Assembly (NCBI RefSeq): GCF_017901135.1
Contig: NZ_CP072801.1
Coordinates: 3,221,501-3,285,500 of the forward strand
Source of the DNA: Thiothrix litoralis
GTDB taxonomy: Bacteria; Pseudomonadota; Gammaproteobacteria; Thiotrichales; Thiotrichaceae
Length of the DNA stretch: 64,000 nt
Reading direction: 5' to 3'
The notes beneath the pieces were generated by a model. The model did not search any database, had not been told where the DNA came from, and saw only the letters and a list, made by a program, of their open reading frames with translations. How positions within the stretch are numbered: the stretch's first letter is position 1; each line of letters opens with the position of its first letter. Shown here piece by piece: positions 1,353-38,385 of this stretch. The translations under genes were made by a program, and so were the position numbers.

Positions 1353-1388
1353 AATCATCTCACTATTTGTGCGTTTATAGGCCACGTT

Positions 1389-3545: not shown

Positions 3546-3557
3546 CTGCTTTTCACC

Positions 3558-6295: not shown

Positions 6296-6340
6296 GCTAT
6301 ATAAGTGTCCAGTGCAAAGGTGACTCGAAGCAGGGCGGGA

Positions 6341-7249: not shown

Positions 7250-7268
7250 AGAAAACTCCGATGCGTTT

Positions 7269-9166: not shown

Positions 9167-9217
9167 TTTTGTATTCTCCTTCTCACTCTGTGAATATGTG
9201 GGGGCTGGCGATAAAAC

Positions 9218-11784: not shown

Positions 11785-11819
11785 AATGTTGGAATCTCTC
11801 CTTGTTAGGGTATGCTGGA

Positions 11820-19283: not shown

Positions 19284-22200
19284 TGACCCTCTCCCGCTGA
19301 ATTATCGGCGTCGGACGCCTGGCTGGTAGATGCATCTGCGGGCTTATGCTCACCCAGTAGCGTGCTTGCTTCCACGACCAGTTCGTTGATCGTGATGCCC
19401 TGCAATATGCGGGGCAACGCAATCTGTAAGCCCAGTTCCCGCCGTAACTGGTTACGCAGCTCAATCAGCATCAATGAATCAAAACCCAGAAATAGCAGAT
19501 TGCTGTCAGCATCCAGAGCGGCGGTGTCGGCACATCCCAGCACCTTGCCAACCGTGAGCGTCAGTTGCTGACGAATATCGGCATGACTGCCCGCACCCCG
19601 TGTCGTCACTGCCGTTGCGGCGGTAGTCACCTCCGGGCTGCGGAGAAAGGCCGCGAGAAAGCCCTGATGCGCCTGAAAGCTGTCGATAAAACGGGGCCAG
19701 TCTGCCCGTATCAGCGCCACATGCCCCTGCTCACTCAGGAGCTGCTGCAAGGCGGCGCGGGCCGCAGCCACTGGCAAGGCTCCCAACCCGGTGTGTGCCA
19801 GCGTATCTTGCCCAGCGCTGTCTGCTGCCATCCCGATACCTGCCCAATCCCCCCAACTCACGCTGAGCGCTGGCAGGTCTTGTTGCTGGCGGTAAGCAGC
19901 CAATGCATCGAGAAAAGCATTCGCCGCCGCATAATCGGCGTGTCCGCCCAACCCAAGCAAGGACGAGGCCGATGAAAACAGCACGAAGAAATCCAGCTCA
20001 AACGGGCGCGACAGTTGATGCACGTTCCAGCTTCCCGCCACCTTTGCGTGCAAGACTGATGCAAACCGTGCCCAAGCAGGCTGGGCTGCTGGTTCCGCCG
20101 CGATGGTTCCAGCCGCATGGACAATGCCTTTCAAGGGCAGCGCTGCGCCACCTGCCTCCAGCTTGGCAAACAGCTTACCCATGGCTTGCGCGTCGGTCAC
20201 ATCCAGTTCCGGCGTCTGCACGGTGACACCCCGCTGGCGTAATGTCGCCAGACGCTGGTGCTGTGCTGTTGTCTTCACCCCGTGACGGCTGGTGAGTATC
20301 AGGTGACGCGCCCCCAGCGCTGCCAACACCTCAGCAACTTCCAAGCCGAGCGCACCCAGACCACCGGTAATCAGGTAAGCGGCTTCAGCCTGCACGGTTC
20401 CTCGCATGATCGCGGCAGGTGCCGTTGCCTGTTGCAGGCGTGCCACATACCGGTCGTCGCCACGCAAGGCAACCTGTGCTTCGGCATCATCGGACGGCAC
20501 AGACGCATTCAACTCTGCCCACAGTCCAGCAGCACGTTCTGCAATGTCCTCGGCGGGGTTCAGGTCAATTAGGCCACCCCATCGCGAGGAGTATTCGAGC
20601 GCAAGGCTACGCCCCAGCCCCCACAGTGTGGCCTGTGACGGGTTCAAGCCTGCTGGGCGGAATTCCACATGCTCAGAGCCGACAGCCTGAGCTCCACAGG
20701 TCACCAACCACAGACGTAGGCGATCAGTACCAACGCCACCCAGCCACGGCAACACACCCAGAACACCGCCGCAAATCCGCTGCTGCGCCTGCATCAGGGC
20801 ATCAGCAGGGACATCCCCGGCAGGCGGGGTTTCATCCAACCCCCACAGGTACACCAAGCGCTGCACGGGCTGAGCGGATGCGACAGTTGCACATTCCCGC
20901 CAAAAGGCCGTGAACTGCTGCGGATCCGCCGGGTTGATCGTCCAACGATTGCGGCCTTGCGAGGCGAAGGTATCCCCCGTGTACAACAGGAATACGCTCA
21001 GACCGGCAGCTTCTGCCCGGGTCGCCATGGCGGCACCGACACCCGCCTGATCCGCCAGAATAACCCAGCAACCACCAGTACCTGCTGCCCCCACATCCAC
21101 CTTGCCAGTGACAGGCAAGCGCTGCCAAACCGGTGCGTACAACAAGTCACGCCATGACGGCGCTGCTTGATCATCACTTGCTTGTTGTTGCAGTTCCGCC
21201 GCCAGCAAGGGCACGATCCCAAGCTGTTCCTCTGTCAACTTGCCCAAGGCAAACAGCCGTTGCGCGGCTTGCTGCAAAGCCGCTTGCAGGGAATGCTGAT
21301 CAGGCAGACGGTTGAGCGGCTTGCGCTCAACCCAGCACTGCTTGCGCTGAAACGGCATGGTCGGCAACACCTGCTTGCGCCACGCCTGATCGCTATACAA
21401 GCCAGACCAGTTGATAGCACAACCTCGCTCATACAACTGTCCCAAGCTGCCCAATAGCTGCGACCAGTCATCCTGCCCCCGGCGCAGGCTGGGTAGTAAT
21501 AATGGTGCATCCGCCTCCGTATCCCAGCCAAGGTGTTCGGCAATTTCCGCCACCATCCCCAGCAGGGCGGGCGTGGGGCCAATTTCAAGAATAATGCCGA
21601 CCTGCTGACGCCGCAGGGTCTGAATGCCATCAGCAAAACGCACAGCCTGACGGGTGTGTTTTACCCAATAGCCCGGGTCAAGCAGCGCATCCGACACCAC
21701 CTCCCCGGTCACGTTAGAGATGACCGGAATCCGGGCGGAGCTTAACCGCAGCCCACCCAAAGCGGTAGCAAACGGTTCCAGCATGGGTTCCAGTGCCGCT
21801 GAATGAAAAGCGTGGGAAACATCCAGCCGCTTGTGCCGCACGCCCTGCTCCCGCAGTTGTTCAGCCAGTCTCTCCAGTGTAGCTAGCTCACCCGACACGA
21901 CCGTACTGACCGCGCCATTGATCGCAGCGATGCAAGCTTGCCCGTCATGGGCTTGCAGGTACTGTTCCACTTGCGCCTCATCCAGCGCCACCGCCAGCAT
22001 CCCACCACCGGCTGGCAACGCTTGGATCAAGCGACCACGCTCGGCAACAATGTGCAAGGCATCCTCCAGTTCAAACACGCCAGCCACGCAGGCAGCCACG
22101 TATTCGCCCAAACTATGCCCCATCACCAAGTCAGGCGTAACCCCCCAGGATTGCCACAGTTCCGCCAACGCGAGTTCGACGGTGAACAGCGCCGGTTGCG

Positions 22201-25200
22201 TGTACCGGGTCTGTGTCAGCAAGGCGGCTTTTTCGGTATCACCCGCCTCCGCTGCAAACAGGACCGATAACAACGGCTCGGGCAAAACCGGATCAAGGAT
22301 AGCCGCACAACGGTCAACGGCGGCACGAAACGGCGCAGAACTGCTGTAGAGCTGGTGCGCCATACCGAGGTACTGAGCACCCTGACCAGTGAACAGGAAG
22401 GCAATCTTGCCGTGCCCTGTACTATCTGCCGCCGCAAGGGTACGGGGTAACGGCAAAGCCTCCAGCTTCCCAGCCAGTTCCGGCGCGGAAGCCGCCACCA
22501 CAGCGCAGCGGTAGGGAAAGTGAATGCGCCCGGTGGCAGCCGTAGCGCACAAACTGGTCAAATCGGTCGCTGGCTGCTCAATCAGTAAACCACGATAACG
22601 CCCTACCAAATCACGTAAGCCTGGCTGGCTGGCTGCGGACAGAACCAGCAAATGACGTGACGATACCGTAATAGCCTCAGGAGCCGCCGGGCTGGCTGCT
22701 ACATCTGTCGGCGCTTCTTCAAGCACGATATGGCAGTTGGTACCACCCATGCCAAAAGAGCTGACCCCCGCACGGCGTGGCGTCGCCATTTCACGCGATG
22801 CAAGCCATGGCGTCAGTTGGGTACTGACACGAAACGGGCTATTGGCGAAATCAATCTCGGGGTTGGGGGTGTGAAAATGCAGGCTCGGCGGAATCGCTTT
22901 GTGCTGAAGCGTCAGTACGGTCTTGATGAAACCCGCTATTCCCGCCGCCTCATCCAGATGACCGATATTGGCTTTAACCGAACCGATGGCGCAATGTTGT
23001 GGCGCGGGCGCATTAGCTGTCTCCCAACCCCGCCGGGTATAGGCGCGGGTCAGCGCCGCAATCTCAATGGGATCGCCCAGTCGGGTACCGGTACCGTGCG
23101 CTTCGACATACTCGATAGTGCGCGGGTCGACAGCGGCGGCGACCAGTGCGGCCTCCACGACGGCTGCTTGCCCGACCACGCTAGGAGCCGTATAACCCAC
23201 CTTGAGCGCACCATCATTGTTGACCGCAGACCCCTTGATGACAGCAAGGATTGGGTCGCCATCAGCCTGCGCAGCAACCAGAGGCTTGAGTAAAACCATG
23301 CCCGCACCATTACCGAACAGCGTCCCCTCAGCCTGCGCATCGAAAGCCCGGCAGCGCCCATCAGGCGAACGAATCATACCCTCTTCAAACAAATAGCCGG
23401 TTTTTTGCGGTATTTTCAGGGCAACGCTACCTGCCAGCGCCACCTCACATTCGCCAGCCCGCAGACTTTGACAGGCCATATGCACGACAACCAGCCCAGT
23501 CGAACAGGCCGTTTGCACATTGATAGCGGGCCCCGTTAATTGCAGCCGGTAAGCAATGCGGGTGGCAAGGAAGTTGCGGTCATTGGCCAAGTTCTCCTGA
23601 TACTCCGCCAGTGTTGCCTCGGTGACGGGATGGGTGGCTACAACATTATTGAGGAAATAGCTGCTGGCACTGCTACCGGCATAGACGCCGATGCGACCAG
23701 CATCGCCACCCGGAGCAATACCGGCACGCTCCATCGCCTCCCAAGCGCATTCCAGTAGCAGACGCTGTTGCGGATCCAGCAGTGCCGCTTCTTTATCGCT
23801 GAAACCGAAAAATTCGGCATCAAAACCCGCGATATCGGCCAGTACAGCACCGGATTTCACATAACTGGGGTCATGACGCAATGGGGCATCCGGTTGTTCA
23901 AGTTCCTCATCGGAGAAATCCGAGATTGAATCTACCCCGGCACAGAGGTTCGACCAAAAGTCCTCCGGTGTCACCGCGCCGGGAAAACGGCACGCCATGC
24001 TGATGACGGCAATGTCCTGATCCTGATGCCGGTTGACATCACGCTGCCCGGGAGAGGATTTTGCTTCCGGTGCGGCTTGCTGCACATAGTTGGCCTGCGC
24101 GGCGACAGTCGGGTATTCCAGCAATGCCGCCACCGACAGGCTGAACGTCGGAAAAGCTTCGCGTAACTGCTGATGGAGTTGCGCCAGACGCAGGGAGTCG
24201 CCCCCTATTTCAAAAAAGTTTTCGTGGATACCTACGGTGTCGGTCAACAACACCCTTTTCCACAACTGGGTGATATGGGTCTGGGTGTTCCCAGAAACTG
24301 CATGATTGGGCAAAAGGCCGGACTGAGCCAGCTCAACCAGCTTGCGCCGGTCAACCTTGCCGCTGGGCGTCGATGGCAGCGTCTCCAGAGCCATTAGCCG
24401 CTGAACCTGCCAATGCCGTGGAGCCTGCTCGCGCAGCGTTGCCAACAGACGCCGCGTGTTCACGGAGGCTGGCGTTACAAACGCTACCAAGCTACGGTTT
24501 TCGGCGAGTGCTGGGTCTTCCTGCACCACCACTTTCACTGCATCCAGCGGCTCGCCACAGGCTCTTAATGCCGCCTCGACAGCACTGAGTTCAATGCGGT
24601 GACCACGTACCTTGACCTGATCGTCAGCACGACCGGCAAATAACAACATCCCTTCAGGACTCATGCGGACACGATCCCCGGTACGGTAAAGCCGTTGCGT
24701 ACCGCCGAAAGGGTTTTCAATAAAACGCGCCGCTGTCTCTATAGACCGGTTGAGGTAACCGAGTGCCTGCAAAGCGCTCCCTACCAGCAATTCCCCTACC
24801 TCACCGGGGGCAACTTCATGCTGTAACGTATCCACGATATACAGCTCAGTACCCGCGATAGGGTAGCCAATGGGTGCGTCTGCGCCCCCCAGCTCGATGC
24901 CTGCCCCCAGTTCGACATGGCTGATTTCAGGCACTTCACTGCAACCGTACAGGTTAACCAGTGATACGTTCGGCAAGGCATGTCGAAAGTTGTCAACCAG
25001 ATCACTGGTCAGACGCTCACCGCTGACGATGCACAGCCTGAGTTGGGGCAAGCGCTGCCCAAGGTCAGGGGCAGCAATCAACAAGGCTCGTAACTGGGAT
25101 ACCACCAGCGAAATCCGGGTAACCCCGTGTTCTGCCAACAATGCCAGCAGTTTCTCCGGGTTGCTGCTGTGGGAATCCGGCGCTACCAACAGCGGACGCC

Positions 25201-25867
25201 CTTGCAACAAGGTACCGAATATTTCCAGACTCGCATCGACAAAATGCAGGGCAGTCTTCTGGCAACAGATATCCGCATCAGACAGGGGAAATGCCCGCCA
25301 TAGCCAATCAAGGCGGCTTTGCATCTGCTGGTACGTGCCGCAGACGCCTTTGGGTTCATCCGTACTGCCGGAAGTATACAACACATGAAACAGACGCTCG
25401 CCGGGGACTGCTGCCACTGGTACACGATCAGGCCGAGCCTGCTGACACAAGTCGGGCACCGTCAACACATGTTCTACCGAAGCCGTGAATGCTGCCTGTG
25501 TGCACTGGTCAGCCAGCAGAAAGCGCAGACCGGCACTGCGCACCATGCGTTGCTGCAAATCTGCCGGATAAGTGGGGTCAATCGGCAGGTAAGCGCCTCC
25601 GGCTTTGAGTATGCCTAGCATGGCGCAAATCGCATCCACGCCCCGCGCCATGCACAACCCAACCAAGCGGCAGCCATCATCCGTTCCTGCGCCCACACCC
25701 AGCCCCCGCAAGGCGCTGGCGATGCGGTCAGACTGCTGCTGGAGCTCAGCATAGCTGAGCGTACCATTGGGGGTAAGTAGGGCAACGGCGTCAGGCTGTT
25801 TGGCCACCTGATCGGCGAACTGCGCCAAAAGATCCTTGTTTGAGCCGATGGTTATATCCATAGTCAT
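19262..25867 (-). CDS. Hybrid NRPS-PKS (A-T-KS-AT-KR-ACP)
   Basis: About 2201 residues from the ATG at 25867. The domains in order are: a loading A domain (YTSGSTDEPKG; pocket V-D-L-S-I-S-L-E-I), a T domain (EIGGDSLRL), a KS with active cysteine in TACSTGLV plus EAHGTGT and NIGHLDEAAG, an AT with GHSLGEY and HAFH (the malonyl-type motif), a KR with TGGLGALG and YAAAN, and an ACP with LGFDSLML. No dehydratase or enoylreductase motif is seen, so one malonate extension with reduction to a hydroxyl is expected. The absence of a C domain at the N-terminus marks it as the starter protein. An open frame upstream to 25981 lies inside the nitrilase gene. The A pocket has Asp shifted by one position, as in domains for beta-amino or other unusual acids. 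Confidence 0.94.
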   Translation of the reverse strand: MTMDITIGSNKDLLAQFADQVAKQPDAVALLTPNGTLSYAELQQQSDRIASALRGLGVGAGTDDGCRLVGLCMARGVDAICAMLGILKAGGAYLPIDPTYPADLQQRMVRSAGLRFLLADQCTQAAFTASVEHVLTVPDLCQQARPDRVPVAAVPGERLFHVLYTSGSTDEPKGVCGTYQQMQSRLDWLWRAFPLSDADICCQKTALHFVDASLEIFGTLLQGRPLLVAPDSHSSNPEKLLALLAEHGVTRISLVVSQLRALLIAAPDLGQRLPQLRLCIVSGERLTSDLVDNFRHALPNVSLVNLYGCSEVPEISHVELGAGIELGGADAPIGYPIAGTELYIVDTLQHEVAPGEVGELLVGSALQALGYLNRSIETAARFIENPFGGTQRLYRTGDRVRMSPEGMLLFAGRADDQVKVRGHRIELSAVEAALRACGEPLDAVKVVVQEDPALAENRSLVAFVTPASVNTRRLLATLREQAPRHWQVQRLMALETLPSTPSGKVDRRKLVELAQSGLLPNHAVSGNTQTHITQLWKRVLLTDTVGIHENFFEIGGDSLRLAQLHQQLREAFPTFSLSVAALLEYPTVAAQANYVQQAAPEAKSSPGQRDVNRHQDQDIAVISMACRFPGAVTPEDFWSNLCAGVDSISDFSDEELEQPDAPLRHDPSYVKSGAVLADIAGFDAEFFGFSDKEAALLDPQQRLLLECAWEAMERAGIAPGGDAGRIGVYAGSSASSYFLNNVVATHPVTEATLAEYQENLANDRNFLATRIAYRLQLTGPAINVQTACSTGLVVVHMACQSLRAGECEVALAGSVALKIPQKTGYLFEEGMIRSPDGRCRAFDAQAEGTLFGNGAGMVLLKPLVAAQADGDPILAVIKGSAVNNDGALKVGYTAPSVVGQAAVVEAALVAAAVDPRTIEYVEAHGTGTRLGDPIEIAALTRAYTRRGWETANAPAPQHCAIGSVKANIGHLDEAAGIAGFIKTVLTLQHKAIPPSLHFHTPNPEIDFANSPFRVSTQLTPWLASREMATPRRAGVSSFGMGGTNCHIVLEEAPTDVAASPAAPEAITVSSRHLLVLSAASQPGLRDLVGRYRGLLIEQPATDLTSLCATAATGRIHFPYRCAVVAASAPELAGKLEALPLPRTLAAADSTGHGKIAFLFTGQGAQYLGMAHQLYSSSAPFRAAVDRCAAILDPVLPEPLLSVLFAAEAGDTEKAALLTQTRYTQPALFTVELALAELWQSWGVTPDLVMGHSLGEYVAACVAGVFELEDALHIVAERGRLIQALPAGGGMLAVALDEAQVEQYLQAHDGQACIAAINGAVSTVVSGELATLERLAEQLREQGVRHKRLDVSHAFHSAALEPMLEPFATALGGLRLSSARIPVISNVTGEVVSDALLDPGYWVKHTRQAVRFADGIQTLRRQQVGIILEIGPTPALLGMVAEIAEHLGWDTEADAPLLLPSLRRGQDDWSQLLGSLGQLYERGCAINWSGLYSDQAWRKQVLPTMPFQRKQCWVERKPLNRLPDQHSLQAALQQAAQRLFALGKLTEEQLGIVPLLAAELQQQASDDQAAPSWRDLLYAPVWQRLPVTGKVDVGAAGTGGCWVILADQAGVGAAMATRAEAAGLSVFLLYTGDTFASQGRNRWTINPADPQQFTAFWRECATVASAQPVQRLVYLWGLDETPPAGDVPADALMQAQQRICGGVLGVLPWLGGVGTDRLRLWLVTCGAQAVGSEHVEFRPAGLNPSQATLWGLGRSLALEYSSRWGGLIDLNPAEDIAERAAGLWAELNASVPSDDAEAQVALRGDDRYVARLQQATAPAAIMRGTVQAEAAYLITGGLGALGLEVAEVLAALGARHLILTSRHGVKTTAQHQRLATLRQRGVTVQTPELDVTDAQAMGKLFAKLEAGGAALPLKGIVHAAGTIAAEPAAQPAWARFASVLHAKVAGSWNVHQLSRPFELDFFVLFSSASSLLGLGGHADYAAANAFLDALAAYRQQQDLPALSVSWGDWAGIGMAADSAGQDTLAHTGLGALPVAAARAALQQLLSEQGHVALIRADWPRFIDSFQAHQGFLAAFLRSPEVTTAATAVTTRGAGSHADIRQQLTLTVGKVLGCADTAALDADSNLLFLGFDSLMLIELRNQLRRELGLQIALPRILQGITINELVVEASTLLGEHKPADASTSQASDADNSAGEGQWTTIVI

Positions 25868-25869
25868 GC

Positions 25870-26610
25870 TTACGAGCCTGAGTAGTATGTTCGCAGGGTG
25901 GGGAGTTCCGCCAAATCCAGATCGCCGATCAAAACCCCTTCCATCTGCGCAATCCGTTGACGGACACCTAACGGGTGGCAAATCATGCTAACCGAGAGCG
26001 TGTTGTCCGACACTGCATCACACAGCACAAAATAAACCAGATTTTCGAAGGCACGCGCCAGCGGCAACGCTTGCAACGGCTCCCCATCCATCTCGTAATC
26101 CGCTAGGTAACTGGGGCAGAAAATCACCTCTGCACCCTGTTCCGCCAGATCCGCAAGGTATCGCGGGTAAGCCATATCCCAGCAGGAAATAATGGCAATA
26201 CGCGCCAACCCGATATCAATGACGCGAGACGCATCACCGCTTTGGTAGACCCGCTTTTCCGCTCGCCACAGGTGAACCTTGTCGTAGCGGTAATGAATAT
26301 TGCCGTCAGGATCCAGCAGATACATGCTGTTTTTGCGGTTGTGCGCATCACCTGAATCAGCGCCGAAAATGACCCAGACCCGGTTTTCACGGCTGGCCGC
26401 TTGCAGTGAAGCAATGGCTGGCGACAGGTCAACCCATTGATCCATCAGCGGATTCAGACTGTACTCAGGAAAACAGACAATCTGTGCACCTGCCCCAGCA
26501 GCCTGCGGAATCACCGCCAGCATACTGGACAGGTTACGTTCCAGATCATCGCTGACCCGCAGGGACGCAACCGCAATCCGCAAGCAGCGGGCAGATGAGC
26601 CGGGCATCAT
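25870..26610 (-). CDS. Nitrilase-fold carbon-nitrogen hydrolase
   Basis: A 246-residue member of the nitrilase superfamily with the Glu-Lys-Cys triad: FPEYSLNPL, RYDKVHLW and ISCWDMAYP. Such enzymes cleave amides or carbamoyl-amines, or run in reverse as amide synthases with a donor. The ATG at 26610 overlaps the stop of the dehydratase gene, and the stop lies two bases before the hybrid synthetase start. It could trim an amide, release ammonia for another step, or be a beta-ureidopropionase-like enzyme acting near the beta-alanine supply. The substrate cannot be told from the sequence. Confidence 0.87.
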   Translation of the reverse strand: MMPGSSARCLRIAVASLRVSDDLERNLSSMLAVIPQAAGAGAQIVCFPEYSLNPLMDQWVDLSPAIASLQAASRENRVWVIFGADSGDAHNRKNSMYLLDPDGNIHYRYDKVHLWRAEKRVYQSGDASRVIDIGLARIAIISCWDMAYPRYLADLAEQGAEVIFCPSYLADYEMDGEPLQALPLARAFENLVYFVLCDAVSDNTLSVSMICHPLGVRQRIAQMEGVLIGDLDLAELPTLRTYYSGS

Positions 26611-27584
26611 CAAGCGGCTGCCCGCAGGCGGCTCAACAGGGAGGCATCGACATTCGCCCCACACAATAACAACGCCACTTTTTTGCCTTCAAAATGGCTA
26701 GCCTTTTGCAACAGTGCTGCGACCGACAAGGCTCCAGAACCTTCCACCACAATCCCGTGGTACTCATCCAGCAGCAGCATGGCGTGACCAATTTCCTCTT
26801 CGCTGACCAGGATGTAATCATCCACATAATCGCGGCAGAACGCGAAGGTAACCGCGCCCTGCTCAACACCGCCTGCCGTCGCGTCTGACAGCGTTGGCAA
26901 TGAGGGCATTTCCAGAATCTTGTTGGCGCGAACCGATTCGGCCATAACGGCCGAATTGGCTGGCTGTACACCGATGATCTCGATATCCGGCCTGACACTG
27001 CGCAGATAACCGGCAATACCACCAATCAACCCGCCGCCACCCACAGGCACCACAATCGAATTCACGTCATCGCCGAGATCCGCAAGCTGGGCGAGAATTT
27101 CGCGGGCAATGGTGGCTTGCGCGTACATCGCATCCCACTCGTTATAAGGTGAACGGAACGTCAGGTTGTGCTCTGCTGCATAGGCTCTCGCGACCACTTC
27201 GGCATCCACAATGTCTTCGCCTTCATGGATGATCTCGACCGGGTTCTGGCTAATCGCCGCAACCTTGTGAGGCACGACCGTATTCGGCAAAAATACCGTG
27301 CCCGGTATGCCCAGCTTCTTCATCGCCCACGACATCGAGATGCCATTGTTGCCGGTCGACACCGTGACAACATGCCGCCGCTGCTCCGCACTCAACCCTG
27401 ACAGCATGAAATACGCGCTGCGTGCTTTGCAGCAGTTAGTCAACTGGAGGTTTTCCTGTTTGAGGTACACAGTACCACCAATGGCTTCACCCAACAGCGA
27501 AGAGGGTGTCAATGGCGTCGGCTGAATAACATCGGCCAGTACTTGTGCAGCTTGTTCGGTCTTTTCCTTGAATGGGTAATTCAT
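26610..27584 (-). CDS. Fold-type II PLP ammonia-lyase (threonine/serine dehydratase family)
   Basis: A 324-residue PLP enzyme. The PLP lysine lies in LTNCCKARSA, where the family usually reads TGSFKxRGA; the lysine itself is kept. The phosphate cup is GGGGLIGG. The length fits single-domain dehydratases without a regulatory ACT domain, such as hydroxyaspartate or serine/threonine dehydratases and racemases. The altered TNCC loop suggests a substrate other than threonine. It is the second gene of the operon, 26 bp after the adenylation-decarboxylase gene. It may make an oxo acid or an aminoacrylate-derived precursor. Confidence 0.86.
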   Translation of the reverse strand: MNYPFKEKTEQAAQVLADVIQPTPLTPSSLLGEAIGGTVYLKQENLQLTNCCKARSAYFMLSGLSAEQRRHVVTVSTGNNGISMSWAMKKLGIPGTVFLPNTVVPHKVAAISQNPVEIIHEGEDIVDAEVVARAYAAEHNLTFRSPYNEWDAMYAQATIAREILAQLADLGDDVNSIVVPVGGGGLIGGIAGYLRSVRPDIEIIGVQPANSAVMAESVRANKILEMPSLPTLSDATAGGVEQGAVTFAFCRDYVDDYILVSEEEIGHAMLLLDEYHGIVVEGSGALSVAALLQKASHFEGKKVALLLCGANVDASLLSRLRAAA

Positions 27585-27610: not shown

Positions 27611-30600
27611 TTATAGAGGGTAAACGGGCGCGGTCAGCGCCTGCCGGTCGATTTTGCCGCCTAGGGTAAACGGCATTTCACCCAGAATCCGGTATTCGCG
27701 TGGTACCATGTAATCTGGCAAAGCCTTGCTGAGAAGGCGCTTGATGGTTGTGAGCTGATCAGCACTGTCACCACAGGCATCCAATACCAAGTGAGCCACT
27801 AAAAATTTATCCCCCTGCCCGTCGTCACCAACTGACGTCGCGCAATGCACGATGCCGGAGACTTCCTGCAACGTTGCCTCCACTTCGGATAACTCGACAC
27901 GATGACCGCGTATTTTCACTAGGTCATCATTGCGCCCCCGGTAGTCGATATTGCCGTCATCCAGCCACTTGCCCCGGTCACCGGTACGGAACAGGGTAGC
28001 GTTCGGCTGCCGCGCAAACGGGTCTGGCACAAAACGTTCATGGGGTTCGTCCAGACGATGAAAGTAACCCGGTGATACCGCCACCCCACCGACATAGATT
28101 TCACCGATCACGCCTACCGGAACGGGCTGGCGATTTTCATCCAGAATGTAGACTTGGCAGTTGGGCAACGGCTTGCCAATCGGCACCAGCGGCTCTCCCG
28201 GTTCCTCCTTGAAGGTGGCGATCGCGGAGAAGGCATCCGCCAACGAAAAGCCGTGGAGGTTTTCACCATTACCCAACATCGGGCTGATTTCATCACCACA
28301 AACCGCCTGAGCAATGCCAAGCTGATCTTCCAATACCTGATGAATGTCCGCTTGTGTCGTCAGGGGGTTCGCCAGAATGACCCGGAATACGACCACAGGG
28401 CAGTCTTGCCCATAGCGCGTATTGGTCAGCGTAGTCTTGGAAACAAAGGTCGACCCACGCAGGAATTGCATCTCCTGAATCTGCTGGTTGATGGCGTTGA
28501 TCGCACGGTTATCGGCCGGGGAAAGTGCCCCTGCATCCAGCTTCTGCCGGTAGGCTTGCGGGATATAACGGTAATTCACGATATTAAGCGGCGGCTCGAA
28601 CAGTAGCTCAAAGCAATCCATGGCATCGACAATACGGGAAAAAAATAGTGCCTTGTCGACACTGGCGTTGAACAATGCCTCGTAGCCTTTCCTGCCAATC
28701 AGTTGCAACGAAGCATGTACCAGCAAGGCCATGGCCGACCGTGAGCCCTCAATACTGAAGCGCCCCACATCGTAGGAATCGGGCGTTGCCTGATACGCAG
28801 CGGTCGTTTCCCCGTATTGCAATTCCTCCGGGTCGCGGAACAGACACACGCTAATGCCCTGCGGCAGGTAAAGTTGCTTGTGGGCGCAAAAGGTAACGGA
28901 TTGCGCCCGTTCCAGCCCCTTAAAACGCGGGCGATACTGCTCTGAAAACAGCGCACTGCCGCCCCAAGCCGCATCGACATGAAAATAGATACCGTGCGCT
29001 TGGGCAATGTCAGCCATCTGCTCCAGCGGGTCGATGTGACCGGTTTCGGTGGCTCCGGCGATCCCGACCATGGCAAAGACCAGCAACCCATCCTGCTTGC
29101 ATTGCTCCAGTTTGCGATTCAGGTCGGCGGTATCCAACACACCATCCGGGGTAAAGTCCACATGCACGATATTGCGCATCCCCAGCCCAAGCACGGAGGC
29201 TGACTTTTTCATCGAGTAATGCATCAGCTTAGAACCCAACAGAACCAGATCCTTATAACCGCTGGCGGCAAGGATGGAATAGATGCTTTGGTCTTGCCAG
29301 TCACGCCTTCCCGTCAATTGCGACAAAGCGCGGTTACGGGCAATCATCAGGGCGGTAATGTTAGAAATCGTCCCACCAGTGGTCACCAAACCCAAGTTGG
29401 TATTCACCTTTTGCACATACTTGGCATAAAACGCATCGTCCAGCCCGTAGAAGCAGCGGTGCAACATGGCCAACGCTTCACGTTCCAGGAAAATCGCTGA
29501 CTTAGCTGTTTCGATCTTCACCAGATTCTGGTTCATTTGTGAAATCAACTTGCTGACATCGTGTACAAAATCGGGCAGTGCCGAGGTCATATGACCAACA
29601 TACAGGGGGGATGCCGTATCAATGGAATACGGTAAGACTTCTTTATGGAACCAGTCGAAGTAGCTGGCCTGCTGAGTGGGCGACTCAGCCATGCGAGTCT
29701 GCTGAAAATGCGCGGCTAGCTCCTTGACGGGAACGTTCGCTGCGGTGATCTCGCTGCCGAAATCCAGTGCCTTGGAGAAGTACGCCAACACGTTGTCCAC
29801 ATCCGAGCGCTTCACCTCATACCAGCTTGCATCAGCGCTGGTTTCCGTAGCGCCATAGACATTAATCAGGCGTGCCTGCTTGAAACGTTGATAGAAAAGC
29901 CCAGCCAGCGCTTTCGATAATGCCTCGCCACTGCAAAACACCTGCTTCAGGTGCTCCAAGTGGAAAATCAGCTCCTTACGCACGCACAGCATCGACTTCA
30001 ACAGGGACGGTGCTACCACCAAACGGGTAATCCTTTTCCTTGCCAGCACCCGAATCAATTGCTCGGGGTCATTCGCCTCATCATCGGCTAGAATCACCAA
30101 AGGAATACCCTTGAGCAAAGGGGCAAAGATTTCAGCCAGATGATCCACGGCACTGATCGAGACACGGTGACAGGCGACTTCCTGTGCCTGAAACGGGTAC
30201 ACGTTCCAGGTCCAGTGCAAGCGGTTGAGGATGCCCTGATAGATGCCGCGAACAGCCTTGGGATGACCCGTCAGCCCAGAGGTGTAGATCACGTAGAGGA
30301 GTGAATCCACACTCACCGCGTTATCAGGGTTGCAGGCTGGCTGTTGACTAATAAGCGGCCAATCAGTATCCAGATCAATCCGCCCGGGAAATGGCAGGGG
30401 GTTATCCAAGCAGAGTATTTTACGGGTGATCAAGGCACTGGGTTGGCAATCACACAGAATAGTGCTTACCCGTCCAACCGGCGTACTACTATCCAACGGG
30501 ACATAGGCGGCACCGGCCTTGAGTACACCTAACAGGGCAACCACCCAGTCCACAGAGCGCTCCAGATAAAGGGCGACGAGCTGCCCGGAACCTATGCCAC

Positions 30601-30751
30601 ACTCCGCCAGATAATGCGCTATCTGGTTGGCTTTCGCATTCAGCTCGCCATAGGTGATGTCAGCGCTGGCGTCAGACAGGGCAACCTGACCCGGCGTCAG
30701 CATCACTTGCTGCTGGAAAAGCTGTGCTAAAGACTGGAATTCATGGGGCAT
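27611..30751 (-). CDS. Adenylation domain interrupted by a PLP aspartate-decarboxylase-like domain
   Basis: A 1046-residue protein with an NRPS A domain split by an inserted enzyme. The first part (1-310) carries YTSGLTGHPK near 156 and the A5 motif YGATETSAD near 299. The insert (about 315-855) is a group II PLP decarboxylase with HVDAAWGG (Asp near 593) and the PLP lysine in FCAHKQLY (near 625); its N-terminal part (YVGHMTSALP, then GGTISNITAL) resembles PanP-type aspartate 1-decarboxylases. The A domain resumes with PIGKPLPNCQVYIL and GEIYVGG and ends with the A10 lysine in GGKIDRQAL. No carrier domain follows. The pocket reads V-D-A-V-F-S-V-A-D, again beta-alanine-like. The likely role is to form beta-alanine from aspartate, activate it and load a carrier in trans. 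It is the first gene of the operon. Confidence 0.93.
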   Translation of the reverse strand: MPHEFQSLAQLFQQQVMLTPGQVALSDASADITYGELNAKANQIAHYLAECGIGSGQLVALYLERSVDWVVALLGVLKAGAAYVPLDSSTPVGRVSTILCDCQPSALITRKILCLDNPLPFPGRIDLDTDWPLISQQPACNPDNAVSVDSLLYVIYTSGLTGHPKAVRGIYQGILNRLHWTWNVYPFQAQEVACHRVSISAVDHLAEIFAPLLKGIPLVILADDEANDPEQLIRVLARKRITRLVVAPSLLKSMLCVRKELIFHLEHLKQVFCSGEALSKALAGLFYQRFKQARLINVYGATETSADASWYEVKRSDVDNVLAYFSKALDFGSEITAANVPVKELAAHFQQTRMAESPTQQASYFDWFHKEVLPYSIDTASPLYVGHMTSALPDFVHDVSKLISQMNQNLVKIETAKSAIFLEREALAMLHRCFYGLDDAFYAKYVQKVNTNLGLVTTGGTISNITALMIARNRALSQLTGRRDWQDQSIYSILAASGYKDLVLLGSKLMHYSMKKSASVLGLGMRNIVHVDFTPDGVLDTADLNRKLEQCKQDGLLVFAMVGIAGATETGHIDPLEQMADIAQAHGIYFHVDAAWGGSALFSEQYRPRFKGLERAQSVTFCAHKQLYLPQGISVCLFRDPEELQYGETTAAYQATPDSYDVGRFSIEGSRSAMALLVHASLQLIGRKGYEALFNASVDKALFFSRIVDAMDCFELLFEPPLNIVNYRYIPQAYRQKLDAGALSPADNRAINAINQQIQEMQFLRGSTFVSKTTLTNTRYGQDCPVVVFRVILANPLTTQADIHQVLEDQLGIAQAVCGDEISPMLGNGENLHGFSLADAFSAIATFKEEPGEPLVPIGKPLPNCQVYILDENRQPVPVGVIGEIYVGGVAVSPGYFHRLDEPHERFVPDPFARQPNATLFRTGDRGKWLDDGNIDYRGRNDDLVKIRGHRVELSEVEATLQEVSGIVHCATSVGDDGQGDKFLVAHLVLDACGDSADQLTTIKRLLSKALPDYMVPREYRILGEMPFTLGGKIDRQALTAPVYPL

Positions 30752-32274: not shown

Positions 32275-32754
32275 ATGCGTGAAGTGATCGCCCGCCAACT
32301 TCGCCTGGGTCACGCTGACATCGGCAGGCTGACCTTCAACCCACGTTCGCGGGACGACATCCCGCAGGTGTTGCAAGGGCTGCAATACATTTATGTGACA
32401 GACGAACTGCGTGAGGCGGTGTTTGCGGTGCTGGAAAAGCGGGTTCCGGCGGAGGTGGACGCCAGCCGTGGACGCCCCGGCATGGATCTGTGGAATGCGC
32501 TGGTGCTGGCGACATTGCGGGTGAACCTGAACTGGGACTATGACCGGCTGCTGGAGATGGCGAACCAGCACCGCAGCATCCGTCAGATGCTGGGGCATGG
32601 TTTCTGGGATGATGACGATGAGTACAAGCTGCAAACGGTCAAGGACAACGCCGCTCTGGTGGACGAAGCCAGCCTGCAACGCATCAACCAGTTGGTGGTG
32701 GAGGCCGGTCACAAGCTGCTAAAAAAAAGCCGCGCCGCTGAGCGCCCGTTGTGA
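32275..32754 (+). CDS. ISNCY-like transposase, N-terminal open frame
   Basis: This 159-residue frame holds the N-terminal part of the transposase (ITRQ-like start MREVIARQ, then NPRSRDDIPQVL and RGRPGMDLWNALVLATLR, typical of this IS group). It ends shortly after a run of eight A (32721-32728). The following frame continues the protein in the +1 phase. Removing one A from the run would join the two into one transposase. This can be transcript slippage, as known for some IS elements, or a real inactivating mutation. Confidence 0.8.
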   Translation: MREVIARQLRLGHADIGRLTFNPRSRDDIPQVLQGLQYIYVTDELREAVFAVLEKRVPAEVDASRGRPGMDLWNALVLATLRVNLNWDYDRLLEMANQHRSIRQMLGHGFWDDDDEYKLQTVKDNAALVDEASLQRINQLVVEAGHKLLKKSRAAERPL

Positions 32755-32761
32755 CTCCTTC

Positions 32762-33748
32762 GTGGTGGAAAGCAACATCCACTACCCGACCGACATCAAC
32801 CTGTTGTACGACGCGGTGCGTTGTTCGGTGCGCACGGTGGCCGATTGGTGTGAAGGGCACGGCGACAGCCGCTGGCGGCAATGGCAGTACAATCTCCGCC
32901 AGGTGAAGAAAGCCTGCCGTCATGCGCAGAAGCTCAAGCACTCCAGCTCCCAAGACCCGGACAAGCAGGCCACCCGGCAACAGGCCATCCGTGACGCCCA
33001 CCACACCTACCTGGGCCTGTGCGCCGCGCTGTTGTCGAAAGTGGAGGAAACGGTGGCTGACCTGCCCCTCAGCCTGCTGGACAGCCGGTCGGGCAACGAC
33101 CTCCAGCGCTGGCTGGGGTACGGGTGGCATCAGGTTGACCTGGTGCGGCGGCGGGTGCTGGACGGGGAAACCATCCCCCACGGCGACAAGATCTTCTCCC
33201 TCTTCGAGGATTACAGCGAATGGCTCAGCAAGGGCAAAGCCGGTGTGCCGGTGGAGCTGGGCCTGAACGTGTGCGTGATGGAATCGGCTGACGGCTTCAT
33301 CCTCCACCACCAAGTGATGCAACACTGCCCCGACAGTGAGATTGCCGTGACCATGGTTAAGCAAGCCAAAGCGCTGTTCCCCTCCCTGAGCGCGTGCAGC
33401 TTTGACAAGGGGTTCCACTCACCGGCCAACCAGCGCGAACTGGCCGAACTGCTCGACCGGGTGGTGTTGCCGAAAAAGGGCCGCTGGAGCCAGGCGGACA
33501 CTGCCCGTGAAACCGACCCGGCGTTTGTCCAGGCCAGACGCCAGCACTCAGCGGTGGAATCCGGCATCAACGCACTGGAAGTCCATGGGCTGGACTATTG
33601 CCCCGACCGGGGGCTGGAACGCTTCAAGCGCTATGTGGCACTGGCGGTGGTGGGCAGGAACCTGCAAAAGGTCGGGGCCATTTTACAGGCCAGGGCGTTG
33701 GAGGCCTTGCAGAAGGATGAACGCCGACGACAGCGCCAAGCCGCCTGA
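32762..33748 (+). CDS. ISNCY-like transposase, C-terminal catalytic frame
   Basis: A 328-residue frame starting VVESNIHYPTDINLLYDAVR, where V(V)ESNIHYPTD holds the first catalytic aspartate of a DDE transposase. The second lies in SACSFDKGFHSPANQ and the Glu in QHSAVESGINALEVHGL. It has no good start of its own, since the phase is closed by a TAA at 32720 just before the A8 run; expression probably depends on slippage from the first frame. Several long open frames on the opposite strand here are shadows. Confidence 0.8.
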   Translation: MVESNIHYPTDINLLYDAVRCSVRTVADWCEGHGDSRWRQWQYNLRQVKKACRHAQKLKHSSSQDPDKQATRQQAIRDAHHTYLGLCAALLSKVEETVADLPLSLLDSRSGNDLQRWLGYGWHQVDLVRRRVLDGETIPHGDKIFSLFEDYSEWLSKGKAGVPVELGLNVCVMESADGFILHHQVMQHCPDSEIAVTMVKQAKALFPSLSACSFDKGFHSPANQRELAELLDRVVLPKKGRWSQADTARETDPAFVQARRQHSAVESGINALEVHGLDYCPDRGLERFKRYVALAVVGRNLQKVGAILQARALEALQKDERRRQRQAA

Positions 33749-33997: not shown

Positions 33998-34073
33998 CCA
34001 GTTGCATCGTCGATGCTTACCCATCTACGATTATCCCAATCAAGATAGCATTCACACAAGGAACGTCAGTAAC

Positions 34074-36206
34074 ATGATTGGTGTATTAGCGATCAGTTTT
34101 ATCGCGTCCCATATTGCTACCAGAGTGGTCAAAGCAAAAAAACATAAAAGCAAGCTTAAGCAAACACTACTCCCTCATAAGCCCGTCATCACGCCCCTGG
34201 AAGACCGTTTTCAAGCCGCTATCGAGCAAAAATTCGACCGAATACTGGGGGATAAGCGCAACCAGCAACTGCAACGTCTGAGTGGTTCTCTCGCCACAGC
34301 GGAAATTCCCGCAGAAGCCAAACAAGATAACCGCTATTTGCTCAGTACTGGCTTGAATGCTTGGGCTGCTGTACTGCTGGGGGTGATTGCACCTGCTTGG
34401 TTGATCCTGACCGTACCGTTTTCTCTGTATCTGGTAAGAAAGCCTTTCCAACGTGCGTGGCATGGGGTGATGCATGAAGGCCGAGTGAGTGTGAATGTGG
34501 TGGATAGTGCTGCCGTCAGTATTGCTCTCCTGACAGGCTTTTGGCAGGTGACAGCGATCAGTTTGTTTCTGTATGCCACTGCCCTAAAATTGTTAAACAG
34601 GGCGAAACAAAAATCCCGCCAGCAACTATCCAACATGTTCACGCAAACGCCTGCTACGGTCTGGATTCAGCGCGGCGAGGTGGAAGCTGAAATCAAGCTA
34701 AAAAACCTGCAAGCAGATGACATCGTGGTGGTACGTTCGGGAGAAGTGATTCCAGTGGATGGCCTGATTCTGCAAGGCACGGGACTGGTTGACCAACGCG
34801 CCTTGACGGGGGAATCCCAGCCCGCCGAAAAACAAGTAGGCGATGAAGTGTTTGCTTGTACCCTGCTGCTCAGTGGGAGGGTACAAATCCAGGTACAGAG
34901 CACGGGGCAGCAAACCGTTGTTGCCCGCATTGGTGAATTGCTGCAAAAAACGGCTGGGTACAAGAATCAGCATGAGTTTCAGGCCGAACGCTTTACTGAC
35001 CGCTCGGTTGTCCCCACCTTGTTGCTCAGTGCGCTGGCACTGCCGGTCAGCGGGGTATCCGGTACCATTGGGGTCTTGTGGTCGTGCTTTGGCTACAACA
35101 TGCGCATTACCTCACCGATGAGTGTCATGAACTTCCTGCGCCATGCTTCCGAGCAACAAATCCTGATCAAGGATGGCATGGCATTGGATACTCTGCCCAA
35201 CATTGATACAGTCGTGTTCGACAAAACTGGCACCTTGACGGAAGAAGAGCCGGAACTGTACCGGATACATATTTTTGCCCAGTATGGCGAAACAACCATG
35301 TTGGCTTATGCCGCCGCTGCCGAATACCGTCAGACCCACCCGATTGCCCGCGCCATTCTGGCGGCGGCTAATAAACAGGAACTGTCACTTCCCGGGGTTG
35401 AGGACAGCTATTGCAAACTGGGTTACGGTATCGAAGCCCGGATTGACGGGCAAACAATCCAGATCGGCAGTGCCCGGTTCATGGAAAGTAGTGGTATCAA
35501 GATACCGGAAACCGCTTGGTTGATGCAGACGGAAGCGGAAACCTCGGGTCATTCCATTGTCATGCTGGCGATAGGCAACGTGTTGGCAGGTGCGATCGAG
35601 CTACGCCCACAAATACGCACCTCAGCCCAGCAGGTGATACAGGCATTAAAAGCGCAGGGTATCCGTACCTGCATCATTTCCGGTGACCGGGATCTCCCTA
35701 CCCGCCGCCTGAGTGAGACCCTTGGCATCGACCAGTATTTCGCCAATACATTGCCAGAACAGAAAGCTGAAATTGTCCAACGCTTGCAAGCCGAGGGGAG
35801 CACCGTCTGCTTCGTCGGTGATGGCATCAATGATGCGATTGCCCTCAAACAAGCTGACATCTCGGTTTCACTCAGCGGTGCAACCACGGCAGCTACTGAT
35901 ACGGCGCAAATCATCCTCATGGATGCCGACCTTATCCATCTGGTGACACTGACCGATATGGGGCGGCAGTTCCAACAGAACCAGCAGCAAAATATGCGTA
36001 TTTCTGTCATCCCTGCCATCATCAGCATTGGCGGGATTTTCATCTTACATGGCGGCCTGTTACTGGCGGCTGGTATGTTTTACGGCGGCATGGGATTAGG
36101 TGTCAGAAATGCCATTCGACCTATCCGCCCCCCCCGACTTGAAAATAACCAGGAGTCTAGTCATGCAAACCCCACAGCAACTCAGGCAGCACTATCAGTA
36201 CGTTAG
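34074..36206 (+). CDS. P1B-like P-type ATPase with FGY in place of CPC (copy 2)
   Basis: A 710-residue ATPase that begins with a membrane segment (MIGVLAISFIASHIATRVV) followed by a lysine-rich stretch. Catalytic motifs are intact: LTGESQPAEK, DKTGTLTEEE, the P1B dipeptide in TDHP-like position (RQTHPIARAI), and GDGINDAIAL. The membrane metal site reads FGYNMRITSPMSVM where copper and zinc pumps have CPC. No CxxC metal-binding domain is present. The ATG at 34074 is preceded by AAGGA and fits the start of the two homologues; an open frame to 34002 has no support. The 3' end overlaps egtB by 44 bp, so the two are co-expressed. Confidence 0.9.
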   Translation: MIGVLAISFIASHIATRVVKAKKHKSKLKQTLLPHKPVITPLEDRFQAAIEQKFDRILGDKRNQQLQRLSGSLATAEIPAEAKQDNRYLLSTGLNAWAAVLLGVIAPAWLILTVPFSLYLVRKPFQRAWHGVMHEGRVSVNVVDSAAVSIALLTGFWQVTAISLFLYATALKLLNRAKQKSRQQLSNMFTQTPATVWIQRGEVEAEIKLKNLQADDIVVVRSGEVIPVDGLILQGTGLVDQRALTGESQPAEKQVGDEVFACTLLLSGRVQIQVQSTGQQTVVARIGELLQKTAGYKNQHEFQAERFTDRSVVPTLLLSALALPVSGVSGTIGVLWSCFGYNMRITSPMSVMNFLRHASEQQILIKDGMALDTLPNIDTVVFDKTGTLTEEEPELYRIHIFAQYGETTMLAYAAAAEYRQTHPIARAILAAANKQELSLPGVEDSYCKLGYGIEARIDGQTIQIGSARFMESSGIKIPETAWLMQTEAETSGHSIVMLAIGNVLAGAIELRPQIRTSAQQVIQALKAQGIRTCIISGDRDLPTRRLSETLGIDQYFANTLPEQKAEIVQRLQAEGSTVCFVGDGINDAIALKQADISVSLSGATTAATDTAQIILMDADLIHLVTLTDMGRQFQQNQQQNMRISVIPAIISIGGIFILHGGLLLAAGMFYGGMGLGVRNAIRPIRPPRLENNQESSHANPTATQAALSVR

Positions 36207-37413
36207 GCAAGTTTCCGAGCAGATTTGTGCGCCATTGGTGACGGAGGATTACCAGATTCAGTCCATAGAGGAAACCAGTCCACCCAAATGGCATCTGGCG
36301 CATGTCACCTGGTTTTTTGAAACCTTCCTGCTCAAACTGCACAGCAAGGATTATCAGCCATTCCATCCACAGTTTGAAATATTGTTCAATTCCTACTACG
36401 AAACTGTCGGCAAGCTCCACCCACGCCCCAAACGTGGTCTGCTAGCGCGTCCCACTGTTAAGGAAGTCTATGCCTACCGTCATACAGTCGATAAAGCAAT
36501 GGATGTGTTGTTCGATATGCTAGAACAGTACCCGGATGACAAAATCCAGTCTTTCATCGAACTGGGGCTAAACCATGAACAACAACATCAGGAGCTGATG
36601 TGCATGGACATCAAGCACAATTTCTCGGTCAATCCCCTGAAACCGGCCTACCGCAGTGACTTGCCCACTAGCCCGGTGGGCAACACATTTGCAGTGCAGT
36701 GGCATGAACAGACCGCCGGGGTTTATGAAGTCGGTCATGATGGCAACGGCTTTGCCTATGACAATGAAGCACCGCGCCACCCGCAGTATGTGCCTGAATT
36801 CAAACTAGCCAACCGGCTGGTGACCAATGGCGAGTATCTGGCATTCATTGAGGACGGCGGCTATCAGCAGGTTGACCTGTGGCTGTCGGATGGCTGGCAT
36901 CACATCAATCAGTACGGCTGGCAATACCCCCTTTACTGGCAACGGGACGGCCAGTTCTGGCAGGAAATGACCTTGGGAGGCCTACGCCTGCTTAACCCGC
37001 ACGAGCCAGTTAGCCATGTCAGTTACTACGAAGCTGATGCCTACGCCCGTTGGGCAGGCAAACGCCTACCCACCGAAGCCGAAGTCGAAATCGTGTTGGC
37101 TGGCAAACCGCTACAAGGAAATTTCTTCGACCAAGAGCATTTGCACCCACAACCAGCCACTGTGGATGGGCAATGGTTCGGTGACTTGTGGGCATGGACA
37201 GCCACTGACTATCACCCCTACCCCGGCTTCAAACCACTGGAAGGCTCGGCAGGCGAATACAACGGCAAATTCATGTGTAACCAGAAAGTGTTGCGCGGCG
37301 GATGCTGCGCCACGTCACTGGATCATATGCGCGTGACCTACCGTAACTTTTTCTATCCCCATGAACGTTGGGCATTCACCGGCATCCGAATGGCTGATAA
37401 TGCAAGCAAATAA
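36163..37413 (+). CDS. egtB: EgtB-type sulfoxide synthase (ergothioneine pathway)
   Basis: A 416-residue protein with an N-terminal DinB-like iron-binding domain (WHLAHVTWFFE and NHEQQHQELM, giving the three-histidine iron site) and a C-terminal FGE-sulfatase domain (VTNGEYLAFIEDGGY, RLPTEAEVE, VLRGGCCATSLDHMR). The enzyme joins hercynine with cysteine or gamma-glutamylcysteine using oxygen. AGGAG lies seven bases before the ATG at 36163; the longer frame from 36100 overlaps the ATPase more and lacks such a site. It is followed by egtD at 21 bp. The missing egtC and egtE may lie elsewhere, or cysteine is the direct donor. Confidence 0.93.
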   Translation: MQTPQQLRQHYQYVRQVSEQICAPLVTEDYQIQSIEETSPPKWHLAHVTWFFETFLLKLHSKDYQPFHPQFEILFNSYYETVGKLHPRPKRGLLARPTVKEVYAYRHTVDKAMDVLFDMLEQYPDDKIQSFIELGLNHEQQHQELMCMDIKHNFSVNPLKPAYRSDLPTSPVGNTFAVQWHEQTAGVYEVGHDGNGFAYDNEAPRHPQYVPEFKLANRLVTNGEYLAFIEDGGYQQVDLWLSDGWHHINQYGWQYPLYWQRDGQFWQEMTLGGLRLLNPHEPVSHVSYYEADAYARWAGKRLPTEAEVEIVLAGKPLQGNFFDQEHLHPQPATVDGQWFGDLWAWTATDYHPYPGFKPLEGSAGEYNGKFMCNQKVLRGGCCATSLDHMRVTYRNFFYPHERWAFTGIRMADNASK

Positions 37414-37434
37414 TCCTATTAAAGGAGAGGAATC

Positions 37435-38385
37435 ATGAATTTTCAATTCCACGATTACCAACCTGTATTTGAAGACCTTCATACCTCCGTGGTAAAGGGT
37501 TTACAGCAATCCCCCAAGCAATTGCATCCGAAATTTTTTTACGATGAGGAAGGTTCGCAAATTTTTGACCAGATCTGTGAGCAACCCGAATATTACGTGC
37601 CGACAGTAGAACACAGCATTTGTGAAACCTATGCCGCTGACATGATTGCCTGTCTGGGTGACGACTGCCACATCATCGAACCGGGCGCGGGCAGCAGCAA
37701 GAAAGTCCGTTTCCTGCTCAACCGGATGCAGCCTGCCATGTACGTGCCCATGGACATTTCTGCTGAACATCTGCGGGCATCGGCACAGAAGCTGGCGAAC
37801 GATTATCCACGTCTGCCCATCCATGCAGTGTGTGTTGACCACACGAAGCCGTATAAATTGCCTGCTGAAATACCTGCTAACAAACGGGTATTTTTCTACC
37901 CAGGCTCCAGTCTGGGTAACTTTGACCCGGATGATGCCATCCGCTTTTTGCACGATATACGCGAAAAAGCGGGTGCGGATGGTTCATTACTGATCGGTAT
38001 TGACACCAAAAAGTCGGTGGATGTATTGAACAGTGCCTACAACGATGCTGCTGGCGTCACTGCTGCTTTCAACCTCAACCTGCTGAAACGCATCCAGAAT
38101 GAGCTAGACAGTGAAGTGGATGTGGACGGTTTTCACCACCATGCCTTTTACAACGAGCGACAAGGCAGGATTGAAATGCACCTATACAGCAACAAGGAGC
38201 AGACGCTGCGGGTCAGTGGCAGCACCTTCCGCTTAAGGGAGGGCGAATCGATCCATACTGAAAACTCCTACAAATACACCGTGGATGAATTCAAGGCGCT
38301 GGCTTGGGAAGCGGGTTGGCAAAGTGAGAGGGTCTGGCAGGACGAGCGCAAGTATTTCAGCGTGCACTTTCTGCGTAGTCGATGA
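37435..38385 (+). CDS. egtD: L-histidine N-alpha-methyltransferase
   Basis: A 316-residue EgtD that methylates histidine three times to hercynine with SAM. Visible family residues are the SAM motif IIEPGAGSSKKVRFLL, the histidine-binding Asn in PGSSLGNFDP, the RIEMHLYS strand and the Glu/Ser pair in IHTENSYKY, which bind the imidazole. AAAGGAGAGG precedes the ATG. With egtB directly upstream it makes a two-gene ergothioneine unit. Why it is embedded here behind a P-type ATPase is discussed in the findings. Confidence 0.95.
   Translation: MNFQFHDYQPVFEDLHTSVVKGLQQSPKQLHPKFFYDEEGSQIFDQICEQPEYYVPTVEHSICETYAADMIACLGDDCHIIEPGAGSSKKVRFLLNRMQPAMYVPMDISAEHLRASAQKLANDYPRLPIHAVCVDHTKPYKLPAEIPANKRVFFYPGSSLGNFDPDDAIRFLHDIREKAGADGSLLIGIDTKKSVDVLNSAYNDAAGVTAAFNLNLLKRIQNELDSEVDVDGFHHHAFYNERQGRIEMHLYSNKEQTLRVSGSTFRLREGESIHTENSYKYTVDEFKALAWEAGWQSERVWQDERKYFSVHFLRSR

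Follow-up and report, generated by a model that had tools for sequence, protein, structure and literature searches.

On the minus strand of the window (the whole 64,000-nucleotide stretch of Thiothrix litoralis DNA that was analyzed), positions 27611–30751 form a single uninterrupted reading frame from ATG to TAA, with no internal stop, which encodes a protein of 1046 amino acids in which a pyridoxal phosphate (PLP)-dependent decarboxylase lies inside an adenylation (A) domain. The reading frame, Pfam and NCBIfam together give the order A(N)–decarboxylase–A(C). By Pfam and alignment, the N-terminal part of the A domain (residues 1–316; 29804–30751, minus strand) runs through and beyond motif a5 and holds the first nine residues of the pocket code, and the C-terminal part (residues 851–1046; 27611–28201, minus strand) begins just ahead of a6 and carries motifs a6–a10. 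The insert with its linkers (residues 317–850; 28202–29803, minus strand; approximately 534 residues) was assigned to the PanP clade of group II PLP decarboxylases by NCBIfam, trees and alignment, with a core at approximately residues 331–816. Alignment also locates, on the same strand, K625 in CAHKQ (28877–28879) and D593 in HVDAAWGG (28973–28975), which, by the known roles of these residues in the enzyme family, are predicted to be the PLP Schiff-base lysine and the aspartate at the PLP pyridine nitrogen, and K1033 (27653–27655), the catalytic a10 lysine of the A domain.

Pfam matches AMP-binding at residues 12–312 (the better of two stretches), Pyridoxal_deC at 402–729 and AMP-binding_C at 956–1033 (22.6 bits, slightly under the cut-off of 24.5); the NCBIfam model AA-adenyl-dom (TIGR01733) scores 358.9 bits over two stretches, above its cut-off of 317.4. 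Motif a5 (NVYGATE) begins at residue 297, and the PIGKPL stretch ahead of a6 at residue 857, as expected from an earlier note, made from the letters of this DNA, which had placed the split between a5 and the stretch before a6. The a5-to-PIG spacing of 553 residues compares with 15–24 residues in free A domains, for the 29 of 54 rows matching the motif pattern (the other 25, without a pattern match, were left out of the count); thus, the insert occupies a short loop of variable length. In a predicted structure the two A halves fold into a normal A core, matching normal A cores and the solved interrupted A domain 5wmm, so that, on this model, the A subdomains would be able to meet despite the insert, contrary to the failure to meet that the earlier note had named as a possible objection. 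A second catalytic domain thus lies between the motifs of an A domain whose parts appear able to form one fold, as in interrupted A domains, and we regard the split architecture as near certain. Pfam finds no thiolation (T) domain on the chain.

The same domain order, which the earlier note had proposed to look for, occurs in two other genomes: one of the same family but another genus (G018; 1074 amino acids, 62% identity over residues 2–1039) and one of another family (G244; 1062 amino acids, 60% identity). The junctions are the same in all three fused chains, with a5-to-PIG spacings of 571 and 568 residues in the other two. Identity between the copies is 66–71% in the decarboxylase, 51–55% in the N-terminal A part, 57–58% in the a6–a8 part, 38–51% in the A C-terminal subdomain and 38–69% in the two linkers. 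Searches for fused copies gave two among the 63 genomes of the order (the T. litoralis genome and G018; the order and family searches covered the same 63), 2 in the 369 of the class sample (the T. litoralis genome and G244), 1 in the 398 of the phylum sample (the T. litoralis genome) and 1 in the 3 genomes of the order of G244; the order, class and phylum samples overlap. Other matches at E up to 1e-80 (10 genomes in the class sample, 34 in the phylum sample) were confined to query residues 293–847, that is, to the decarboxylase part. Among 1731 matching plasmid records, only two had one place spanning 80% of the query, and both are annotated there as separate genes. A pattern search of genome_contigs returned 18 stretches with one confirmed relative (L009, 22% identity), whose match, at 1548 bases, leaves no room for the insert. 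The G018 gene is flanked by genes for a phosphopantetheinyl transferase and a DUF697 protein, and the G244 gene by dcd and an EamA transporter gene. The row beside the G018 gene (L033, 10205–19719) encodes, on one strand, band-7 and periplasmic binding proteins, an ammonium transporter, an ABC ATPase, an AAT-family acyltransferase and the phosphopantetheinyl transferase.

The resemblance of the insert to the aspartate 1-decarboxylase PanP, claimed in the earlier note together with the PLP lysine and aspartate, is upheld by phylogeny. A tree of 40 decarboxylases places the three inserts in one clade (support 100/100) inside PanP, adjoining PanPs from Nostoc and Gloeocapsopsis gene clusters (98/100). 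In a tree of 28 rows they group with PanPs encoded near nonribosomal peptide synthetase (NRPS) genes in Paenibacillus, Halomonas, Nostoc and Gloeocapsopsis, with a PanP encoded near polyketide synthase (PKS) genes in Chroococcidiopsis, and with one from Aeromonas near which no A domain was found; this group is apart from the other free PanPs, with those of Mycetohabitans and Cupriavidus on the other side. Both trees carry long-branch warnings, and the Paenibacillus row is a shortened frame. Identity to free PanP-like matches is 36–43% over roughly 430–520 aligned residues, and the insert is shorter than free PanPs by roughly 40 residues at its N-terminus. H511, D593, K625, the loop tyrosine Y653 and R671 are kept in all three inserts, as are 83–87 of the 101 columns that are invariant in 30 free PanPs.

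Two trees each join the A halves of the three fused chains in a single clade (support 100/100 and 100/99). In the second of these, a wider clade of nine rows (100/99) unites them with two A domains of the window NRPS genes (A1 and A2, described below) and with A domains bearing a VD-type pocket from the Nostoc, Gloeocapsopsis, Paenibacillus and Halomonas loci; the branches leading to Halomonas and A1 are long. A single old insertion of a cluster PanP into a neighboring A domain would fit both this tree and the decarboxylase trees. By alignment, the pockets read VDASFSVADK in the window copy, VDASFSIADK in G018 and VGVSFSIAGK in G244. The pocket V-D-A-V-F-S-V-A-D read in the earlier note holds, as does its likeness to beta-alanine codes, apart from the fourth position, which is S rather than V. 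Motifs a5, a7, a8, a9 and a10 are kept in the window copy, and the a5 Glu, the a7 TGD, the a10 Lys and most pocket residues are kept across the fused copies.

The substrate of such pockets was approached through 14 plasmid records that contain PanP at E up to 1e-60, each examined with 15 kb per side. NRPS A domains occur within 15 kb of PanP in 8 of the 14, and six of these eight loci hold at least one pocket of the form [VI]D.S.S..[DN]K: VDASSSIADK in Paenibacillus, VDGSFSVADK in Halomonas, VDTS[IV]SFGDK in two Mycetohabitans loci, VDWSISLANK in Nostoc and IDWSISLANK in Gloeocapsopsis. This strengthens the earlier reading of the pocket as beta-alanine-like; VDWVISLADK is a beta-alanine code, for which an open-literature search returned no match. 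The two NRPS-bearing loci without such a pocket are a further Mycetohabitans locus (L105), in which the neighboring NRPS gene extends past the end of the stretch, and L107, in which the NRPS gene beside PanP is complete and PanP is annotated in pieces. A ninth locus (L100) holds one AMP-binding row with an unlike pocket, which we take for a probable acyl-CoA ligase. Altogether, the 14 loci hold 34 A-domain rows, of which 7 are of VD type, one of these being cut ahead of its last residue. No VD-type pocket occurs in the 13 A rows taken from the second NRPS cluster of T. litoralis itself and from other members of the family; those family genomes gave no match at 1e-90 except the own fused gene. 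This second cluster (G000:C1:219122-230183) has the codes DVEAIGAITK, DVQVVAHV-K and DVEYVGGITK. The Mycetohabitans VD domains group in the tree with other A domains of their own genus, and their code probably arose separately. Given that the sample is small, gathered through PanP and includes several closely related records, VD pockets near PanP genes lend support to beta-alanine, which is not proof.

The Halomonas sp. KG2 plasmid (L106, 3834–21974) carries a compact cluster in which the two activities would reside on separate genes: an NRPS with the VDGSFSVADK pocket and a P-loop ending in PKAV, and genes for a PanP-like protein, a protein with an acyltransferase domain, an MFS transporter and a phosphopantetheinyl transferase. 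We also considered the fused enzyme as the only source of beta-alanine in the cell; this is ruled out for T. litoralis by the presence of panD. The panD match in G018 is in two pieces, and none was found in the G244 genome, which is 87% complete.

In the window, the fused gene leads a same-strand (minus) row of NRPS-PKS genes, in which, through to a carbamoyltransferase gene, gaps are at most 26 bases or the listed open reading frames overlap, and with which it would form an operon. The next genes, identified by Pfam and NCBIfam, encode a PALP-fold enzyme resembling threonine/serine dehydratases (26610–27584) and a carbon-nitrogen hydrolase (25870–26664). They are followed by an NRPS-PKS (19262–25981) that Pfam and alignment resolve as A-T-KS-AT-KR-T, and by an NRPS (11820–19283) with a TubC_N docking domain and, by domain search and alignment, the order C-A-T-C-A-T-TE (C, condensation; TE, thioesterase). 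The loading domain A1 of the former (approximately 24302–25861) has the code VDLSISLEIK; its P-loop reads SGSTDEPKG, its a9 is degenerate and its branch in the tree is long, and it may be impaired. Because of the P-loop change and the degenerate a9, the fused enzyme might load the T domain of A1, although this choice is a guess. In the latter protein, A2 (16104–17693) has the pocket VDWSVSLADK, from which a second beta-alanine-type position in the product seems likely, and A3 has DIELAGSVTK. Probable tailoring and transport genes occupy 426–11850 on the same strand, with products assigned by domain search (a NodU-type carbamoyltransferase, two methyltransferases, an SDR, a cupin-8 protein, a B12-radical SAM protein, a P-type ATPase, a sulfotransferase and one protein without a Pfam match); strand and spacing suggest that they belong to the cluster.

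In our judgment there is about an even chance that the fused chain is a bifunctional enzyme in which the decarboxylase supplies, and the surrounding A domain activates, a beta-amino acid. A PanP-type decarboxylase would have been inserted, probably once, into the short a5–a6 loop of an A domain of beta-amino-acid type, with both parts retained. Acting on L-aspartate or one of its close analogues, the decarboxylase would most likely strip off the alpha-carboxylate. The product, beta-alanine or a similar beta-amino acid, would be bound by the surrounding A domain in its VDASFSVADK pocket and adenylated, possibly with channelling between the two parts, and the activated unit would probably go in trans to one of the carrier domains in the window NRPS-PKS assembly line. 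The earlier note had proposed that beta-alanine is made from aspartate and activated on the same chain; the split, its site, the PanP likeness and the pocket type all stand, but the step from aspartate through beta-alanine to activation is opposed by the loss of three PanP residues and by an altered P-loop.

These and several further observations weigh against the proposed function, and each alternative below draws on some of them. The PanP model TIGR03799 matches residues 331–811 with 505.3 bits, below its cut-off of 606.1, the missing N-terminus accounting for part of the gap. All three inserts depart from the free PanPs at 13 of the 101 PanP-invariant columns, including D622 (changed to C in each), R656 (to T/A/T) and R772 (to K/K/S); a second alignment has D, R and R at these three positions in all 15 of its free PanPs, which include those of Halomonas, Paenibacillus, Aeromonas, Chroococcidiopsis and Cupriavidus, and some others of the 13 columns vary among the free PanPs there. 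R656 lies three residues past the loop Y653 and may bind the carboxylate of the substrate side chain; losing it might point to a different substrate. In G244, both pocket aspartates are changed to glycine. These changes, with the catalytic residues kept, favor a bifunctional chain whose decarboxylase has moved from aspartate to another substrate and whose A domain activates that other product; this is the rival that survives best, yet we consider it unlikely. The window pocket is one position away from the PanP-linked VDGSFSVADK of Halomonas, from an A domain only 32% identical overall, and the large majority of PanP-invariant columns are kept.

A second group of observations concerns the carrier that the bifunctional, beta-alanine-activating enzyme would need. 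All four carriers found in the window are within the two megasynthases, and the module of each includes an A or AT domain. No condensation domain was found in the G018 or G244 genomes; the only carrier match in G244 is in a 101-amino-acid frame, and those of G018 are in frames of 2501, 1364 and 81 amino acids. The a8 'RG', present in the window copy and in 27 of 27 free domains, is lost in G018 and G244, as is a9, which among the fused copies is intact only in the window. Both motifs are tied to thiolation, and stand-alone amide synthetases of the A-domain fold are known in which the adenylate is attacked directly by an amine. A carrier-free ligase, whose beta-alanyl-AMP or similar adenylate would be attacked by a soluble amine, with the NRPS context of the window incidental or secondary, would be consistent with these losses, with the chain having no T domain and with the position of the G244 gene between dcd and an EamA transporter gene. 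We nonetheless hold it to be distinctly improbable: the window copy keeps a8 and a9 and leads the NRPS-PKS row, the G018 copy adjoins a phosphopantetheinyl transferase gene, and the G244 genome is incomplete. A broader idea, that these chains are a family of self-supplying ligases, each decarboxylating an acidic amino acid in its embedded PLP enzyme and adenylating the product in the enclosing A domain, and that some copies left the NRPS world to make beta-alanyl amides without a carrier, also strikes us as rather unlikely.

Finally, the P-loop (a3) reads SGLTG..KAV in all three fused copies, against SG[ST]TG.PKG in 26 of 27 distinct free A domains, the exception being window A1; the P-loop of the Halomonas VD domain also ends in PKAV, and two further plasmid-locus rows deviate. 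This shared substitution, and the divergence of the A C-terminal subdomain relative to the decarboxylase, could mean that only one half works: the decarboxylase, with a degenerate A domain as its docking scaffold, or the converse. Across such diverged genomes, however, the a5, a7 and a10 residues and most of the pocket are kept on one side and H511, D593, K625 and Y653 on the other, and we view loss of either half as quite doubtful. The structure model bears on the A fold; its insert part is unreliable and says nothing of how the insert packs. As group II decarboxylases are dimers, a decarboxylase dimer with two A domains at its periphery would be expected. Viral-contig scans gave six A-domain loci and no decarboxylase relative; the alignment behind the structure prediction therefore has no row across the insert, and that part of the model was not used. 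That two genes were merged by a sequencing, frameshift or assembly error, a doubt raised in the earlier note, is ruled out for practical purposes, because the same chain, with the same junctions and recognizable linkers, recurs in three separate assemblies, in genes of 55, 42 and 47% G+C.

Other features of the window include three heavy-metal P-type ATPases (1389–3545, inside the same-strand natural-product row, 34002–36206 and 44468–46519); two adjoining plus-strand reading frames (32275–33748) that by eye resemble pieces of one transposase, with no Pfam match at 1e-5; the ergothioneine genes egtB and egtD followed by a PhyH-like gene (36100–38385, plus strand); and a TnpB-family gene (61195–62418, minus strand) whose best model, IS200/IS605 TnpB, scores below its own cut-off and above the general TnpB cut-off. 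The genome as a whole has a dsrA match that exceeds the model cut-off, and genome size, G+C content and dsrA together suggest a Thiothrix-like sulfur oxidizer. The Rfam 16S family gave no match in this genome, against matches in 9 of 14 control genomes.

Should both activities prove real, the fused chain would be an A domain able to produce the substrate that it activates, with a type and site of insert not named in the two reviews consulted (PMC8949500; PMC11355689). The a5–a6 loop would be marked as a place able to take a large enzyme within an A domain, which is relevant to engineering, and VD.S.S..DK pockets near PanP genes suggest a sequence rule by which beta-alanine modules could be predicted. 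The two copies outside NRPS clusters would, if the idea is true, make the conversion of an NRPS A domain into a carrier-free ligase testable.

Interrupted A domains, as described in the same reviews, include TioS/TioN, KtzH, MarQ, PchF, ColG and IndC, with named inserts that are methyltransferases, oxidases, monooxygenases or reductases at a8–a9 or a2–a3 (PMC8949500; PMC11355689), and a further paper places flavin-dependent monooxygenase (FMO) inserts at a4–a5 and a8–a9 (PMC10204066). A match to a model of SolG had suggested kinship with solanimycin, which we rejected: the similarity is that of A domains, and the sol cluster has other genes (PMC9765074; PMC10204066). Like the interrupted A domains, of which 5wmm is the solved example, the fused chain has a second catalytic domain inside an A domain; unlike those named in the reviews, its insert is a PLP decarboxylase (Pyridoxal_deC) at a5–a6, on a chain without a T domain. 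The main catalogue of such domains, that of Lundy from 2020, reportedly includes an insertion site at a6–a7. The open literature searched, which did not include that catalogue, gave no description of an A domain with a PLP decarboxylase as its insert or with an interruption at a5–a6, nor any paper linking PanP to nonribosomal synthesis. Like PanP (PLP-dependent aspartate 1-decarboxylase, TIGR03799), the insert keeps the active-site residues; unlike PanP, it is embedded in an A domain, has a shorter N-terminus, has lost D622, R656 and R772 and scores under the family cut-off. The closest parallel is with the plasmid clusters of Nostoc, Gloeocapsopsis, Paenibacillus, Halomonas and Mycetohabitans, which pair PanP with VD-coded A domains and thus have the same two enzymes and the same pocket type, with the decarboxylase and the A domain encoded by separate genes, unlike the fused chain of the window; all of these systems except that of Mycetohabitans group with the fused parts in both trees.

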